From Isoptericola cucumis (GTDB lineage: Bacteria > Actinomycetota > Actinomycetes > Actinomycetales > Cellulomonadaceae), in contig NZ_BMDG01000002.1 in the NCBI RefSeq assembly GCF_014635665.1, positions 1 to 64,000 of the forward strand: a stretch of 64,000 nt of DNA, in the 5' to 3' direction. Positions within the stretch are counted from its first letter, which is position 1. Each line of letters begins with the position of its first letter. Of this stretch, positions 56,586 to 62,066 are shown one piece after another. A model generated the notes under the pieces. That model had not been told where the DNA came from and made no database searches. It saw only the letters and a list, made by a program, of their open reading frames with translations. Position numbers and translations under genes: made by a program.

Positions 56586-56604
56586 TTCGGTAAGGCTTGC
56601 CTGA
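56586..56604 (+). promoter_or_regulatory. IdeR/DtxR-like iron box upstream of the DUF1540 gene
   Basis: TTCGGTAAGGCTTGCCTGA matches 14 of 19 positions of the DtxR/IdeR consensus TTAGGTTAGGCTAACCTAA, including both GG and CCT cores in the right phase. It lies about 105 bases before the DUF1540 start codon in the intergenic region 56546-56710. Confidence 0.5.
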
Positions 56605-56710
56605 GCGAATTCGATGTCGATCTCGGTGCGCATTCCCTAGGCATGTCGCGGTGCGAGGAATACTCTCGAGAAGGAGCGCCGACGGGGGCGCCCGACGAGG
56701 GGAGAGCGCG

Positions 56711-57019
56711 ATGAGCACCCTGATGGAGATGCCCGAGGTCGCCGAGTGCTCGGTCGACGGCTGCGGCTACAACCACGACCACGGCTGCCACGCCGGCGCC
56801 GTCACGATCGCGGGGCACACGGGCGACGCGGCGTGCGCCACGTTCATCCCGCTCAGCGCCAAGGGCGGCCTGGAGAAGGTCGTCGCGCACGTCGGCGCCT
56901 GCCAGCGCGGCGAGTGCGTCCACAACGAGCACCTCGAGTGCGCGGCCGCCGCCATCCGCGTCGGGCCCGGCCCCGACGACGCGGGCCACGCCGACTGCCT
57001 CACCTTCGCCCCTCGCTGA
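56711..57019 (+). CDS. DUF1540 protein with two cysteine-rich repeats
   Basis: The 102-residue protein has two DUF1540 units, each with four Cys and one or two His: ECSVDGCGYNHDHGCHAGAV...ACATF and ACQRGECVHNEHLECAAAAI...DCLTF. Such units probably bind a metal ion. ATG 56711 is preceded by GGGGAGAGCG. The IdeR/DtxR-like site upstream suggests iron control. The family has no settled function; a metal-binding, stress-related role is likely. Confidence 0.88.
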   Translation: MSTLMEMPEVAECSVDGCGYNHDHGCHAGAVTIAGHTGDAACATFIPLSAKGGLEKVVAHVGACQRGECVHNEHLECAAAAIRVGPGPDDAGHADCLTFAPR

Positions 57020-57841: not shown

Positions 57842-58043
57842 ACCGGTGAGAGCCTCATGGGGGCCCATCATGACGCAGAACCCGCAGCATTTCTCGGGTG
57901 AGATCTGAGGATCGTCCGATTGGCGGCGGGATCCTAGGGGATTCCCGCAGGAATTCACCCCCACGACACCCCGGTGTGCCAGTACAGTATCGACGTCTGC
58001 GCGTCTCGCCACGCCGCAGGTGGTGAAGGCAGGAGTGGTGGAC

Positions 58044-61000
58044 GTGACGGACGTCTATGCACGACCGGGGGACTCGGCCCGCAGCGACGCGGAGCTGATC
58101 CTCGAGGTGCGAGGTGGCGACCTCGACGCCTACGGCGCGCTGTTCGAGCGCCACGCCGCTGCCGCGCGCTCCGTCGCCCGCCAGTACGCCCGCTCGGCCG
58201 CCGACGCCGACGACCTCGTGTCCGAGGCCTTCCACCGCGTGCTCGACGTCCTGCAGCACGGCGGCGGGCCCGACGCGACCTTCCGCGCCTACCTGCTCAC
58301 CGTGGTCCGCCGCCTCGCTGCCGACCTCGCGAAGGGCCTGCAGCGCACCCGCCCCACCGACGACGAGCACACGCTGGACTCGGGCCTCGACTCCGTGGCC
58401 TCCACCGAGCTGCCCGCCCTGGCGAGCTTCGAGCGGTCGGTGGTGCGCCAGGCGTACGAGGCGCTGCCCGAGCGCTGGCAGGCCGTGCTCTGGTATACGG
58501 AGGTCGAGGGCCGCGCGCCGGCGGAGGTCGCGCCGATCCTCGGTCTCACGCCGAACGGCGTCTCCGCGCTGGCCTACCGCGCCCGCGAGGGCCTGCGGGT
58601 CGGCTACCTGCAGGAGCACCTGACCTCCGCCCCGTCCGAGGGCTGCCGCGCCGTGAACCCGATGCTCGGCAGCTACGTGCGGGGCGGCCTCGCGCGGCGC
58701 GAGGTCGCGAAGGTCGACGCGCACGTCGCCGACTGCCCGGAGTGCCGCGCCCTCGTGCTGGAGCTGTCGGACGTCGCCCACGGCATGCGCGCCGTGGTGG
58801 CGCCGCTGATCGTGGGCATGGCCGGGATGGCCGTCGTCGGTGCCCTGCCGATCGGTGGCGCCCTGGTCGGCGGGCTGACATGGGCGGGCGTGACGGCCGT
58901 GGGGACCGGGGCCGCGGGCGCGGGCGTCGTCGCCGGGACGAGCGGGAGCGTCGCGGGAGCCGGGGTCGGCGCCGGTACGGCCGGGGCCGTCAGCACCGGC
59001 GTCGTGACCGGCGGGTTCGCCGGGACCAGCACCCTCGGCACCGGCGTGATCGGCGCCGGCGGCACGGGCGTCGCCGCCACGGGCGGCGCGGCCGCCGGTG
59101 GGACCGCCGCTGCGTCGGGTGCCGGCGTGGCGGCCGCCGCCGGCGCCACCGTGGCCTCCGCGGGATCGGCCGCCGCCGGGACGGCGGGTGCGGCCGTCGC
59201 GGTGACCACCGGTGCGGCCGCCATGGGCGGGGCGACCGTGGCCGCGACGGCGGGCGCCATCGCCGTCGCGACGGTCGGCGTCGTCACCGTCCTCACCGCG
59301 ATGAACCCGCCCGAGAGCACGCCGACGGCCTCCGAGCCGACGGTCGTGTCCGTGCCGGGCGCGCCGTGGCAGGTGCCGTGGGAGGACGCCGACGGCGACC
59401 CACGCCCCGCCGACGAGCCCGCGGACGACGACCCGGCCGTCCTGCCGACGTCGCCCGCGAACCTGGGTGGCGGCACGCTGTTCGCCGCGCTCGCCGACCC
59501 GGCCGTGCTCGACGTCTCCGCGGCGTCGACGGACGCCCTCCAGCCGCGCACCACGCAGCCGGTGGCGTTCACCGTGACCAACACCGGCGGCTCGGACGCC
59601 GACGGTGCCTACATCGAGGTGGCGCTGCCCGAGGGCCTGGACCTGGTGCGCCCGCCGTCCCCGGCCGGTGCCGCGGCGCCCACGGAACCGCTCGGCGCCG
59701 GTGACCTCGCCTGCACGCCCACCGACGACACCCAGCGCGTCGTCCGGTGCGAGCTCGGCTCGGTGCCGCCGGGCGAGTCGCGTACCCGGACGGTGCCCGT
59801 GCTGGCCCGCTCGGGCGGGAGCTACGCCGTCGCCGCCCACGTCTGGGCCGACGACCTCGCCCGGCAGTCCGTCGCACTGCCGCCCACGACCGTCCTCCCC
59901 TACGGCGCCGAGCTCACCGCGCAGGCCGGCCAGGTCCTCAGCGTGGCCAACCCCGGCGAGGCCTGGGTGCCGGTCACCGTCCAGAACACCGGCGACCTGC
60001 CCGCGGGCCCCGGCTGGTCCGCCCTCGTGACCGTCCCGGCGGGCCTGCACCCGGTCGGTGCCGACGGCGAGCTGGGCTGCTCGCCCGCACAGGACGGTGC
60101 CTGGTCGTGCGCGCCCGGCGCCGGTGCCGCGCCCCTCGGGGCGGGCGAGGCCCGGACCGCGCGGATCCAGGTCGTGGCGGACGGCGCGTCGCCCGCCGGC
60201 GCCGCGGACGTCGCCGTGCAGCCGGCCCTGCCGGGCTCGACCCATGTGGTCGCCGGCAGCGCCCGGCTCGACGTCGCCGAACCCTGGGCGGGCGCCACGA
60301 CCGGCGGGCAGGGCGTCCAGGCCTGGTGCGTCGCCCGCGGCGGCGTCGCCGAGGCGCGGTCCGTCGTCGGCGCCACGTACGTCAACCGGACGGCGCAGAC
60401 GGTCAGACTCCGTCTCGATGCCGCCGGCGACAGCCGGGCCGCCGACCAGGTGCTGGCCCCCGGCGCGTCGGCGACGGTCCGCGTGCCCGACGGGATGCGC
60501 GTCCCGGCCGGGACGGCGACCTGGACCCTGAGCACGACCGTCGCCGGCCAGGAGTACCGCACCACCGTGCACGCCGGTTCGCACGGCCGGGCCGAGTGCT
60601 ACGACCCGCGCTGGGACGTCACCGCCAGGGCCGAGACGGTCAACGAGGGCGGCACGCTCGCGGTCCGCACGACGGTCACCAACGACACCGCCGAGCCGAT
60701 GCAGGTGGGCGCCGCCGTCGCCGGCCGGTCGGCCGACGCGGTCCGCCTGGGGGCCGGCGAGACCACGACCCTCACCGTCCCGACCGGCGCCCGCACGCTC
60801 GACCCCGGCCAGGTGGAGCTGCGGCTCTACCGCTGGGTCGCCGACGCGGACGGCGACGCCCCCGAGCACGGCGTCGTGCCGACGAACGCACCGAAGGCGT
60901 CCTACGCCGGCGCCACCCTCGCACCCGCCACGGCGGGCGCCGCGACGCTCGCCGGGTCGTGCACCCCCGCGGACGGCTCGTCCTGGCACACCGTGTCCGT

Positions 61001-62066
61001 GCCGGTGGACAACACCGCCTCGACGCTGCCGGTCCGGTTCGCGACGGCGGTGCGGGGCTCCGAGTCCGCCGTCCGGGTGGACGGCGGGCGGACGGGCGTC
61101 CTCGAGCTGTCGGTCCCGTGGGGCACCCGGTCGCTGACCGTCTCCGCCGACGGCCGTGAGCTCGGCTCCGTCGACGTCCCCGCGTTCGCCGGCTGCGTCA
61201 CCCCGTCCTGGCCGGCCGGGTCGGTCGACGTGGACGTGGCCACCCGGTGCGTGGACGACCGCGCCCAGGTGGTCGTGACGCTGCGCAACCGCGGCACGAC
61301 GGACTACCGGGCGAACCTGGCCCGCGACGGCGCCGGGTCCGCCGCCCTCCCGGCGGGCGGCGAGGCGGTGCTCCACCAGCAGGTCGGCGGGCTCGAGGCC
61401 CCGGCGGGCAGCGTGACCCTGCAGTTCGGCCGGGAGTTCGAGGGGCAGCGGCACGTGGCCGAGCGGGAGCTCGCACACGCCGCCGTGTCGTGCAGGGTCG
61501 TGGCCCCGCAGGCCCGGCTCGACCTCGGTGACGTCCAGGTCTCCGAGCGCTGGTGGCGGACGACGTCCACCCGGTCGGCGGCCGTCGTCCTCGACAACAG
61601 CGGCTCGAGCGTCCCCGTGGAGTTCACGGTGTCGGGCACCGGCGGCGACCGGACGACGACCGTGGACGCGCGCTCGACCCAGCGCCTCGACGTCGGCACC
61701 GTCGTCGGCCGCCGGGGCGCGTCGTACGACGTGAGCGCGGGCGGGTGGTCCACGACCCTGGCGGTGGAGCCGTTCACGGGCGCCGCCGCCGGCTGGTGCG
61801 CCCCGCGCGCCCGCTGGGGGCAGGACTACGCCGTCGGCGACGTCGCGTCACGCCGCGGCACGAACTACCGGTACGTCGGCTGGGAGCCGCGGGGCGAGGC
61901 CGCGCAGGGCGACGCGCCCGGCCGCTCGGGGCAGGGCAAGGGGCATGGCAAGGGTCAGGGCAAGGGGCAGGGCGACGCCAACGGGCACGACGGTGCGCGG
62001 GGGCAGGCCCGCGGGCACGACGGCCGCGGGCCGTGGGTCGCCCTCGGGCGCTGCGAGTACCGCTGA
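58044..62066 (+). CDS. ECF sigma factor fused to anti-sigma zinc-finger and large extracellular domain
   Basis: A single 1340-residue frame without internal stop. Residues 23-100: sigma region 2 (GALFERHAAAARSVARQYAR, DADDLVSEAFHRVL). Residues 124-193: region 4 (LPERWQAVLWYTEVEGRAP...LGLTPNGVSALAYRAREGL). Residues 201-245: zinc-binding anti-sigma domain with C201, H227-x3-C231-x2-C234, the same 26-residue spacing as in RsrA. Residues 248-422: Ala/Gly/Val-rich hydrophobic stretch, probably one or more membrane segments. Residues 500-590: a DUF11/CARDB-like module (PVAFTVTNTGGSDADGAYIEVALPEGL). Four or five further beta-rich modules follow, each bounded by Cys, then a GQGKGHGKGQGKGQG tail. GTG 58044 has GGCAGGAG eight bases upstream; GTG 58020 is in frame too. 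The sigma part would be cytoplasmic and the rest outside. Confidence 0.93.
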   Translation: MTDVYARPGDSARSDAELILEVRGGDLDAYGALFERHAAAARSVARQYARSAADADDLVSEAFHRVLDVLQHGGGPDATFRAYLLTVVRRLAADLAKGLQRTRPTDDEHTLDSGLDSVASTELPALASFERSVVRQAYEALPERWQAVLWYTEVEGRAPAEVAPILGLTPNGVSALAYRAREGLRVGYLQEHLTSAPSEGCRAVNPMLGSYVRGGLARREVAKVDAHVADCPECRALVLELSDVAHGMRAVVAPLIVGMAGMAVVGALPIGGALVGGLTWAGVTAVGTGAAGAGVVAGTSGSVAGAGVGAGTAGAVSTGVVTGGFAGTSTLGTGVIGAGGTGVAATGGAAAGGTAAASGAGVAAAAGATVASAGSAAAGTAGAAVAVTTGAAAMGGATVAATAGAIAVATVGVVTVLTAMNPPESTPTASEPTVVSVPGAPWQVPWEDADGDPRPADEPADDDPAVLPTSPANLGGGTLFAALADPAVLDVSAASTDALQPRTTQPVAFTVTNTGGSDADGAYIEVALPEGLDLVRPPSPAGAAAPTEPLGAGDLACTPTDDTQRVVRCELGSVPPGESRTRTVPVLARSGGSYAVAAHVWADDLARQSVALPPTTVLPYGAELTAQAGQVLSVANPGEAWVPVTVQNTGDLPAGPGWSALVTVPAGLHPVGADGELGCSPAQDGAWSCAPGAGAAPLGAGEARTARIQVVADGASPAGAADVAVQPALPGSTHVVAGSARLDVAEPWAGATTGGQGVQAWCVARGGVAEARSVVGATYVNRTAQTVRLRLDAAGDSRAADQVLAPGASATVRVPDGMRVPAGTATWTLSTTVAGQEYRTTVHAGSHGRAECYDPRWDVTARAETVNEGGTLAVRTTVTNDTAEPMQVGAAVAGRSADAVRLGAGETTTLTVPTGARTLDPGQVELRLYRWVADADGDAPEHGVVPTNAPKASYAGATLAPATAGAATLAGSCTPADGSSWHTVSVPVDNTASTLPVRFATAVRGSESAVRVDGGRTGVLELSVPWGTRSLTVSADGRELGSVDVPAFAGCVTPSWPAGSVDVDVATRCVDDRAQVVVTLRNRGTTDYRANLARDGAGSAALPAGGEAVLHQQVGGLEAPAGSVTLQFGREFEGQRHVAERELAHAAVSCRVVAPQARLDLGDVQVSERWWRTTSTRSAAVVLDNSGSSVPVEFTVSGTGGDRTTTVDARSTQRLDVGTVVGRRGASYDVSAGGWSTTLAVEPFTGAAAGWCAPRARWGQDYAVGDVASRRGTNYRYVGWEPRGEAAQGDAPGRSGQGKGHGKGQGKGQGDANGHDGARGQARGHDGRGPWVALGRCEYR

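Follow-up and report, generated by a model that had tools for sequence, protein, structure and literature searches.

A predicted membrane-tethered ECF sigma factor carrying its own anti-sigma domain and ectodomain in Isoptericola cucumis, and its usual GGDEF-like neighbour

The window analysed here, a stretch of 64,000 nucleotides of Isoptericola cucumis (assembly GCF_014635665.1, contig NZ_BMDG01000002.1, positions 1 to 64,000 of the forward strand), carries a gene that encodes, in one chain, an extracytoplasmic function (ECF) sigma factor, a zinc-binding anti-sigma (ZAS) domain, a predicted membrane helix and a long exterior part composed of immunoglobulin (Ig)-like modules and a probable carbohydrate-binding module (CBM) of the 5/12 type. 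It is flanked on its upstream side by a gene for a degenerate GGDEF-like protein. The features of the locus are the following, with residue numbers referring to the fused protein:

58044..62066, plus strand: fused ECF sigma / anti-sigma / transmembrane / ectodomain gene, 1340 residues, single intact frame
58140..58346, plus strand: sigma region 2, residues 33-101 (Pfam Sigma70_r2, E-value 8e-11, over cut-off)
58443..58589, plus strand: sigma region 4, residues 134-182 (Pfam Sigma70_r4_2, E-value 2e-4, below cut-off)
58644..58748, plus strand: zf-HC2 anti-sigma zinc motif, residues 201-235 (Pfam, E-value 4e-8, over cut-off)
58791..59312, plus strand: Gly/Ala/Thr/Val tract without Asp, Glu, Lys or Arg, residues 250-423 (174 residues)
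59247..59303, plus strand: predicted membrane helix, residues 402-420 (our own approximate hydrophobicity scale)
59313..59498, plus strand: Pro/Asp/Glu-rich linker, residues 424-485
59502..59900, plus strand: first exterior module, DUF11, residues 487-619
59901..61793, plus strand: about six more Ig-like beta modules, residues 620-1250
61794..62063, plus strand: probable CBM5/12-like tip, residues 1251-1340, flanked by C1252 and C1337
57071..57868, minus strand: degenerate GGDEF-like gene, oriented divergently from the fused sigma gene and conserved beside it
57954..57988, plus strand: TTCACC box and TACAGT (-10-like) box upstream of the fused gene

Translation of the fused gene begins at a GTG codon at 58044 and the stop codon ends at 62066, and this start is supported by the eight closest aligned relatives, which begin at the same point. 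The third-position guanine-cytosine content lies between 0.91 and 1.00 in every 67-codon block (20 blocks), indicating that no frame change occurs within the gene, and start conservation and codon composition together bear out the single 1340-residue frame described in an earlier sequence-only reading of this DNA. That reading had named a frameshift or sequencing error joining two genes as the finding that would undo it; no supporting point for such a joining was found in the codon bias or in the relatives' loci, and the even bias of 20/20 blocks, together with the recurrence of the same fusion in many genomes, makes it scarcely conceivable. The fused gene is the only close match to this sigma factor in the window genome (4.46 Mb, 29 contigs), the next matches being distant (E-value 2.6e-8 and weaker).

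The cytoplasmic half contains sigma regions 2 and 4 only, the composition by which ECF factors are recognised, and region 4 falls below its own Pfam cut-off yet lies inside the span of NCBIfam TIGR02937 (ECF sigma; residues 29-185, E-value 1e-19, over cut-off). The zf-HC2 motif has the Cys-His-Cys-Cys ligands by which ZAS proteins are recognised (C201, H227, C231 and C234), which are unchanged in 41/41 aligned proteins, and many residues of the sigma part are invariant across the same alignment. The two sigma regions and the zinc motif that the sequence-only reading had proposed are thereby upheld, as is the order of sigma, zinc anti-sigma, membrane and exterior parts in one chain. The profile searches suggested at the time gave a divided result, Sigma70_r2 and zf-HC2 passing their cut-offs, Sigma70_r4_2 and CARDB remaining below theirs, and DUF11 passing on a slice only and for one module. 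In an AlphaFold2 model of residues 1-285 (predicted local distance difference test, pLDDT, 73) the sigma domains are predicted with confidence, region 2 superposing on that of sigmaE (5or5) with a root-mean-square deviation of 1.8 Å and a TMt of 0.86, and region 4 on that of SigR (5fgm) with 1.4 Å and 0.73, and the top Foldseek matches of this model are ECF sigma factors, several of them taken from complexes with anti-sigma factors. The domain arrangement in the model is unreliable (predicted template modelling score, pTM, 0.41). We infer that the ZAS domain would hold the sigma factor in cis.

The hydrophobic stretch reported earlier corresponds to the 174-residue charge-free tract, in which one helix is predicted at residues 402-420. 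Tracts of this kind, 132-203 residues long, occur in 11/12 Promicromonosporaceae proteins with a closed frame, while in the twelfth (L011) the frame stops at 323 residues and the tract measures 41; a further 20 zf-HC2 loci from the genus, picked by hand, have charge-free stretches of at most 50 residues, with a median of 25. Among 112 fused proteins with at least 200 residues past the zinc motif, 22 are without a 30-residue window holding 18 Gly+Ala. On the approximate hydrophobicity scale a single helix is predicted between zinc domain and linker in 23/29 sampled proteins, and the chain probably spans the membrane a single time and keeps its sigma part in the cytoplasm. The linker that follows is modelled almost entirely at low confidence between residues 440 and 482.

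The exterior part of about 900 residues is predicted by AlphaFold2 to be all beta save one short helical turn (mean pLDDT 82, pTM 0.43), in keeping with the large beta-rich exterior described before, and Foldseek returns mostly Ig-like or macroglobulin-type domain chains as best matches, with low TM-score. As a slice, the first module scores 31.7 bits against a DUF11 cut-off of 24.6; in the whole-protein Pfam search DUF11 at residues 499-602 reaches 24.5 bits against the same cut-off and CARDB is likewise below its own, and none of six further exterior slices has a Pfam family over cut-off. The number of modules is a visual estimate based on how strands group and cysteines are spaced. Twelve ectodomain cysteines are unchanged in 9/9 close relatives, as expected of an exported part, and their spacing suggests six disulfides. 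The combination with a long ectodomain had been called striking. In a scan of genome contigs the best 80 of 120 matches gave 79 retained loci: a sigma match is present in 79/79, the frame is closed in 63/79 with lengths from 323 to 2149 residues, and 44/63 closed frames reach at least 900 residues, so that a long exterior is usual among relatives. Mean column identity is 63% for the sigma and zinc part (41 proteins) as compared to 31% for the ectodomain (16 proteins), these being different row sets. When ten other fused sigma factors were scanned by Pfam, NPCBM was found in two (2e-29 and 3e-27), ricin-B lectin in two over and one below cut-off, DUF642 in one and bacterial Ig in one over and one below cut-off, with two giving no exterior match; such varied exteriors suggest that the outside parts are exchanged. 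Another genome of the genus (G008) encodes, besides a close relative of the window protein, a distant fused sigma (locus L132) of 668 residues with a weak bacterial Ig-like match; no GGDEF-like gene was found in the 2.8 kb upstream of L132.

The last 90 residues follow the pattern WCxxRxxWGxxYxxGDVxSxxGxxYRYxG ... W..xGxCEY and include an insert at about 1282-1328 that is rich in Gly, Lys and Gln, of low complexity, variable among relatives and of low AlphaFold2 confidence. A profile of 11 tips matches NodB-type deacetylase and chitinase chains of the PDB (E-value 4e-5), and a profile of five insert-free short tips makes the same link at 4.6e-6, ranked under a designed propeller-like protein (1.6e-8) of which no individual stretch passed. 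The insert-free and close-relative tip profiles match one another (probability 77%, E-value 2e-5). Pfam CBM_5_12 is below threshold in the tips of L009, L016, L021 and L049 (best 6.5e-4) and unmatched in those of L001, L002, L004, L007 and L019, and the tip of L027 reads YAVGDTV...YRYVG. The tip is probably CBM5/12-like, albeit not proven to be so; neither this tip nor the GGDEF-like neighbour gene figured in the sequence-only reading. CBM5/12 was also considered as a pointer to chitinases and rejected: the only two CBM5/12 matches of the genome (E-value at most 0.001) sit in one other protein with a tandem CBM5/12 tail, encoded on the minus strand at 1339-3096 of L133 (G000, contig C8), which we take from its sequence to be metallophosphoesterase-like.

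The product of the divergent gene is left unannotated by Pfam, with neither GGDEF nor GGDEF_2, whereas a profile of 22 homologues finds GGDEF chains in the PDB (best E-value 2.6e-6), the nine best of 10 rows being GGDEF or diguanylate cyclase and only the first lying below 0.001; scanned by Pfam, the 22 homologues give GGDEF_2 in 2/22 (best 0.02) and GGDEF in 1/22 (0.11). The profile match assigns a predicted GGDEF fold to the protein. The canonical GG[D/E]EF motif is present in 0/103 homologous frames (a count that includes the window's own and a few near-duplicates), with GGGAF, GGGLF or SDGVF at its position in inspected examples, and with the motif missing, a binding function is more likely for this protein than an enzymatic one. 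In 73/79 loci the gene is divergent from the fused gene, at a distance of 136-730 bp from the start of the latter, and a homologue accompanies 28/28 additional loci (L085-L112, of which L102 and L111 duplicate DNA already counted). A search of 394 genomes of the class, which is lossy in that its first pass scores at most six candidates per genome and whose counts are lower bounds (in G074 and G139 the gene is present upstream, yet not among the matches), recovered at least 51 full-length homologues covering at least 209 of 254 profile positions. All but one of the 51 found adjoin a sigma match that reaches the zinc domain, 39 divergently and 11 in tandem, the edges of the two matches being 104-434 bp apart; the remaining one (G100) is without a listed sigma place, and three of the neighbouring sigma frames are short in the available DNA (326-417 residues), their exteriors being unseen. 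Viewed from the sigma side, 39/42 best matches (down to an E-value of 6e-70) have a GGDEF-like neighbour. The occurrence of two distinct gene orders makes chance linkage very unlikely, and the gene is single-copy in the window genome. In 11 genomes of family f29 the GGDEF-like gene stands in tandem, and two loci of that family (L123 and L124) have fused sigma factors with a ricin-B lectin tail and a GGDEF-like gene upstream, the tail being recognised by Pfam in L123 (which has Ig domains too) and by tail sequence only in L124.

Several loci speak against a partnership. The GGDEF-like gene is missing at 6/79: one (L072) has only 651 bp of upstream sequence, while L046, L066, L074, L076 and L077 lack the gene despite about 5.8 kb or more, three of these five being second copies in organisms whose other locus has it (L046/L025, L066/L040 and L076/L026). 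No neighbour is listed for the sigma matches in G146, G194 and G327, and only 2/14 re-examined loci (13 paralogues outside the ECF52-like set, and L120) have the gene upstream, namely L162 and L163, from the genomes G074 and G139. From its linkage the GGDEF-like protein most likely acts on the fused sigma, and the stand-alone, one-polypeptide system proposed in the sequence-only reading is probably not the whole of it, the gene being the usual neighbour. In actinobacteria the RsiG-WhiG pair, structures of which are among the Foldseek matches of the sigma model, connects c-di-GMP with a sigma factor; RsiG is not known to be a GGDEF protein, whereas the partner described here is GGDEF-derived and without the motif. 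No GGDEF-like partner of a fused ECF sigma was encountered among the titles and abstract openings listed by searches on sigma factors, some of which gave only the top of longer lists (15 of 37, 10 of 432 and 6 of 26), a scope that does not take in the ECF classification paper, and GGDEF is not mentioned in the review PMC8999054. The window branch and its partner may be undescribed.

Among the retained loci the nearest relative is that of Isoptericola luteus (86% over residues 1-264), and the unbroken fusion is present in Promicromonosporaceae, Cellulomonadaceae, Demequinaceae, Micrococcaceae and Nocardiopsidaceae. Some match to the sigma part at an E-value of 0.001 exists in 389/394 genomes of the class, and the best of those listed frequently lie in long open frames. 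Upstream of the fused gene, TTCACC and TANAGT occur together in 14/17 regions compared (L011 and L017 having been left out), including all 14 from Promicromonosporaceae, and are absent in L009, L016 and L019. The pattern occurs once in the window genome. From start to start the boxes are separated by 29-30 or by 39-41 bp, two spacings that differ by about one helical turn, and by 22 bp in L023, and in L005 and L010 the TTCACC box is half of a perfect inverted repeat of 11-13 bp. A contig labelled as a proteobacterial metagenome-assembled genome (L020) bears a Cellulomonas-like fused sigma and is probably mis-binned.

Proteins in which sigma factor, anti-sigma factor and membrane part are fused are a published kind, ECF48/52/53 (PMC8999054), which confirms the earlier statement that ECF52/53-like fusions are known in Actinobacteria. 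The fusion as such is therefore known already, and the window protein sits in its own clade among this kind, with ECF53 compared by description only. The closest parallel is SCO4117 of Streptomyces coelicolor (ECF52), whose single chain likewise combines a sigma factor, a zinc finger, a membrane helix, a linker of low complexity and a tip of the sugar-binding type, and for which release by proteolysis has been proposed as it is here. The SCO4117 type has an NPCBM tip and a TetR-type (atrA-like) neighbour, whereas the window protein has an Ig-like stalk, a probable CBM5/12-like tip and a degenerate GGDEF-like neighbour. We compared it with an ECF52-like set of seven proteins from Streptomyces-like genomes, two of which were scanned and show NPCBM by Pfam while five were assigned by tail sequence; their status as ECF52 orthologues is inferred from these tails and from a TetR-type gene upstream in the two loci inspected, not from a name. 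This gene agrees with the published SCO4117 layout, and we take it to be TetR-type from its sequence. It is improbable that the window protein is itself an ECF52 orthologue with a diverged tail, as the identical order of parts and the identity of about 40-45% over the sigma and zinc domain to Streptomyces-like NPCBM-tipped proteins might suggest: in a tree of 54 rows support reaches 100/99 both for the ECF52-like set (7 rows) and for the clade of the window protein (8 rows), a single clade of both is rejected (approximately unbiased test, p-AU 5e-8), Pfam finds no NPCBM in the window protein, and no GGDEF-like gene was found within 2.2-2.7 kb upstream of the seven ECF52-like genes. None of the 70 genomes with a GGDEF-like match in the lossy class-wide search belongs to the Streptomyces-like family f28, from which these seven genes come.

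A more serious alternative, to which we assign somewhat less than even odds, is that ECF53, or some other established ECF group, already includes the window protein and lists its neighbour. Published descriptions of ECF53 present an actinobacterial group of the same fusion kind, some members having sugar-related domains (PMC8999054, PMC10766802), but its named example comes from Streptomyces and the ten sampled fusions of family f28 fall in other branches. In ECF53 and ECF48 the anti-sigma domain is likewise fused and followed by one or two membrane helices, with regulatory extensions of up to 400 residues in the available descriptions as compared to about 1150 in the window protein (PMC8999054). 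For ECF122 the listed example is from Cellulomonas and the neighbour given is a methyltransferase (PMC8999054). Membership of ECF52 itself was rejected on the p-AU value and on the missing NPCBM.

IutY of Pseudomonas putida (ECF243) resembles the window protein as a sigma factor fused to a membrane anti-sigma and is not known to have a sugar-type sensor of its own. Its proteolytic activation, shown experimentally, proceeds by Prc and RseP, and it is the only such protein named as characterised in this respect, SCO4117 being the best understood within ECF48/52/53 (PMC8999054). In SigI/RsgI of Clostridium thermocellum a substrate-sensing membrane anti-sigma is cleaved by RseP and degraded by ClpXP (PMC12203970), but there sigma and anti-sigma are two separate proteins. 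Little work has been done on sigma factors that share a chain with their own receptor, and the clade described here may serve as a test set, with a conserved cytoplasmic half, swappable exteriors and a usual neighbour that suggests inside input through a dead GGDEF enzyme.

The reading that we favour, with a probability of about 0.6, is that of a membrane-tethered ECF sigma in which surface receptor, anti-sigma and transcription factor share one chain, with glycan or wall sensing, proteolytic release and a GGDEF-like co-regulator. The zinc anti-sigma domain would hold the sigma part in cis inside the cell while a stalk of about seven Ig-like modules would carry the carbohydrate-binding-like tip outward; the tip would bind, or lose contact with, a chitin-, cellulose- or wall-type polysaccharide, a surface protease would then cut the stalk and a site-2 protease (M50) would next cut the membrane helix, upon which the sigma fragment would leave the membrane and direct RNA polymerase. 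The degenerate GGDEF-like protein would act in the cytoplasm as co-regulator of the same sigma. Regulated release by proteolysis or conformational change has been proposed for ECF52-type proteins (PMC8999054, PMC5826349), and a model in which a cis-held sigma is freed by exterior contact and cleavage of the chain is in print for ECF48/52/53 (PMC8999054, PMC5826349, PMC10766802). An M50 protease is encoded in the window genome. A number of observations weigh against this sequence of events. M50 was found in 14/14 control genomes and, being near universal, lends weak support; linkage of the GGDEF-like gene is no proof of interaction; and on the approximate scale two helices are predicted in 4/29 and none in 2/29 sampled proteins. 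The window tip alone reaches only E-value 0.029 with Pfam CBM_5_12 (14.9 bits against 26.2), a profile of nine close-relative tips has no PDB match, and the N-terminal half of that profile gives only an E-value of 0.34, the two best of six matches being chitinases. Tips differ across the family, many relatives having no CBM-like tip, and even the close relative L006 ends without one, so that one ligand class may not fit all. No ECF-type self-regulating promoter was noticed by eye, with no dedicated scan run, and the conserved TANAGT box looks housekeeping-like.

Two other views of the exterior have to be set beside this one. The long Ig-like stalk, the acidic and Pro-rich linker and a tip able to anchor in wall polysaccharide would also suit a sensor of wall tension or integrity that responds mechanically and not to a ligand, which we consider unlikely in view of the many relatives in which the CBM-like tip is missing. 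That the protein is mainly a surface adhesin with the sigma part as a relic, a view to which an exterior making up two thirds of the chain lends itself, is very improbable, given how much better the sigma and zinc part is kept than the ectodomain in the column identities given above.

A bolder version of the favoured reading, offered tentatively and with the odds clearly against it, is a two-gene module in which an outside glycan reader and a co-evolved inside pseudo-diguanylate cyclase would gate the sigma factor and the charge-free tract would be a stop signal for AAA+ proteases; if true, a single sigma factor would receive both outside and inside input. In RsgI systems ClpXP clears the freed anti-sigma (PMC12203970), and in a fusion a protease clearing the anti-sigma would attack the sigma too, which raises the question of how an anti-sigma welded to its sigma can be degraded without losing the sigma. 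Gly-rich or Gly-Ala tracts can impede ClpXP or the proteasome, depending on the adjoining domain, with mixed results for ClpX on Gly-Ala repeats (PMC9531181, PMC6677533). That the tract lets the fused sigma survive degradation, a role that could be likened to NF-kappaB p105 processing, is a guess, because the ClpX data are mixed and 22 fused proteins have no Gly+Ala window; a further point against it is that the zinc domain would remain attached to the sigma.

Two minor observations concern other genes. The frame at 1300-2793 of L082 (G000, contig C13) encodes a region 4-like helix-turn-helix, then a zinc anti-sigma-like motif, a hydrophobic stretch and a Pro-rich tail, with region 4 over and the zinc motif below the Pfam cut-off and no region 2 seen in the frame. 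Those of L145, L148, L151, L153, L156 and L157 resemble it by eye, and together they may represent a half sigma tethered to the membrane that recurs in several genomes within the genus. In the window, a small Cys/His-rich protein is encoded at 56597-57019 on the plus strand, between the fused-sigma locus and what we presume from sequence to be a dnaK/dnaJ cluster, and a homologue is present in 20/79 loci of the relatives, not all of which extend far enough to contain the gene.

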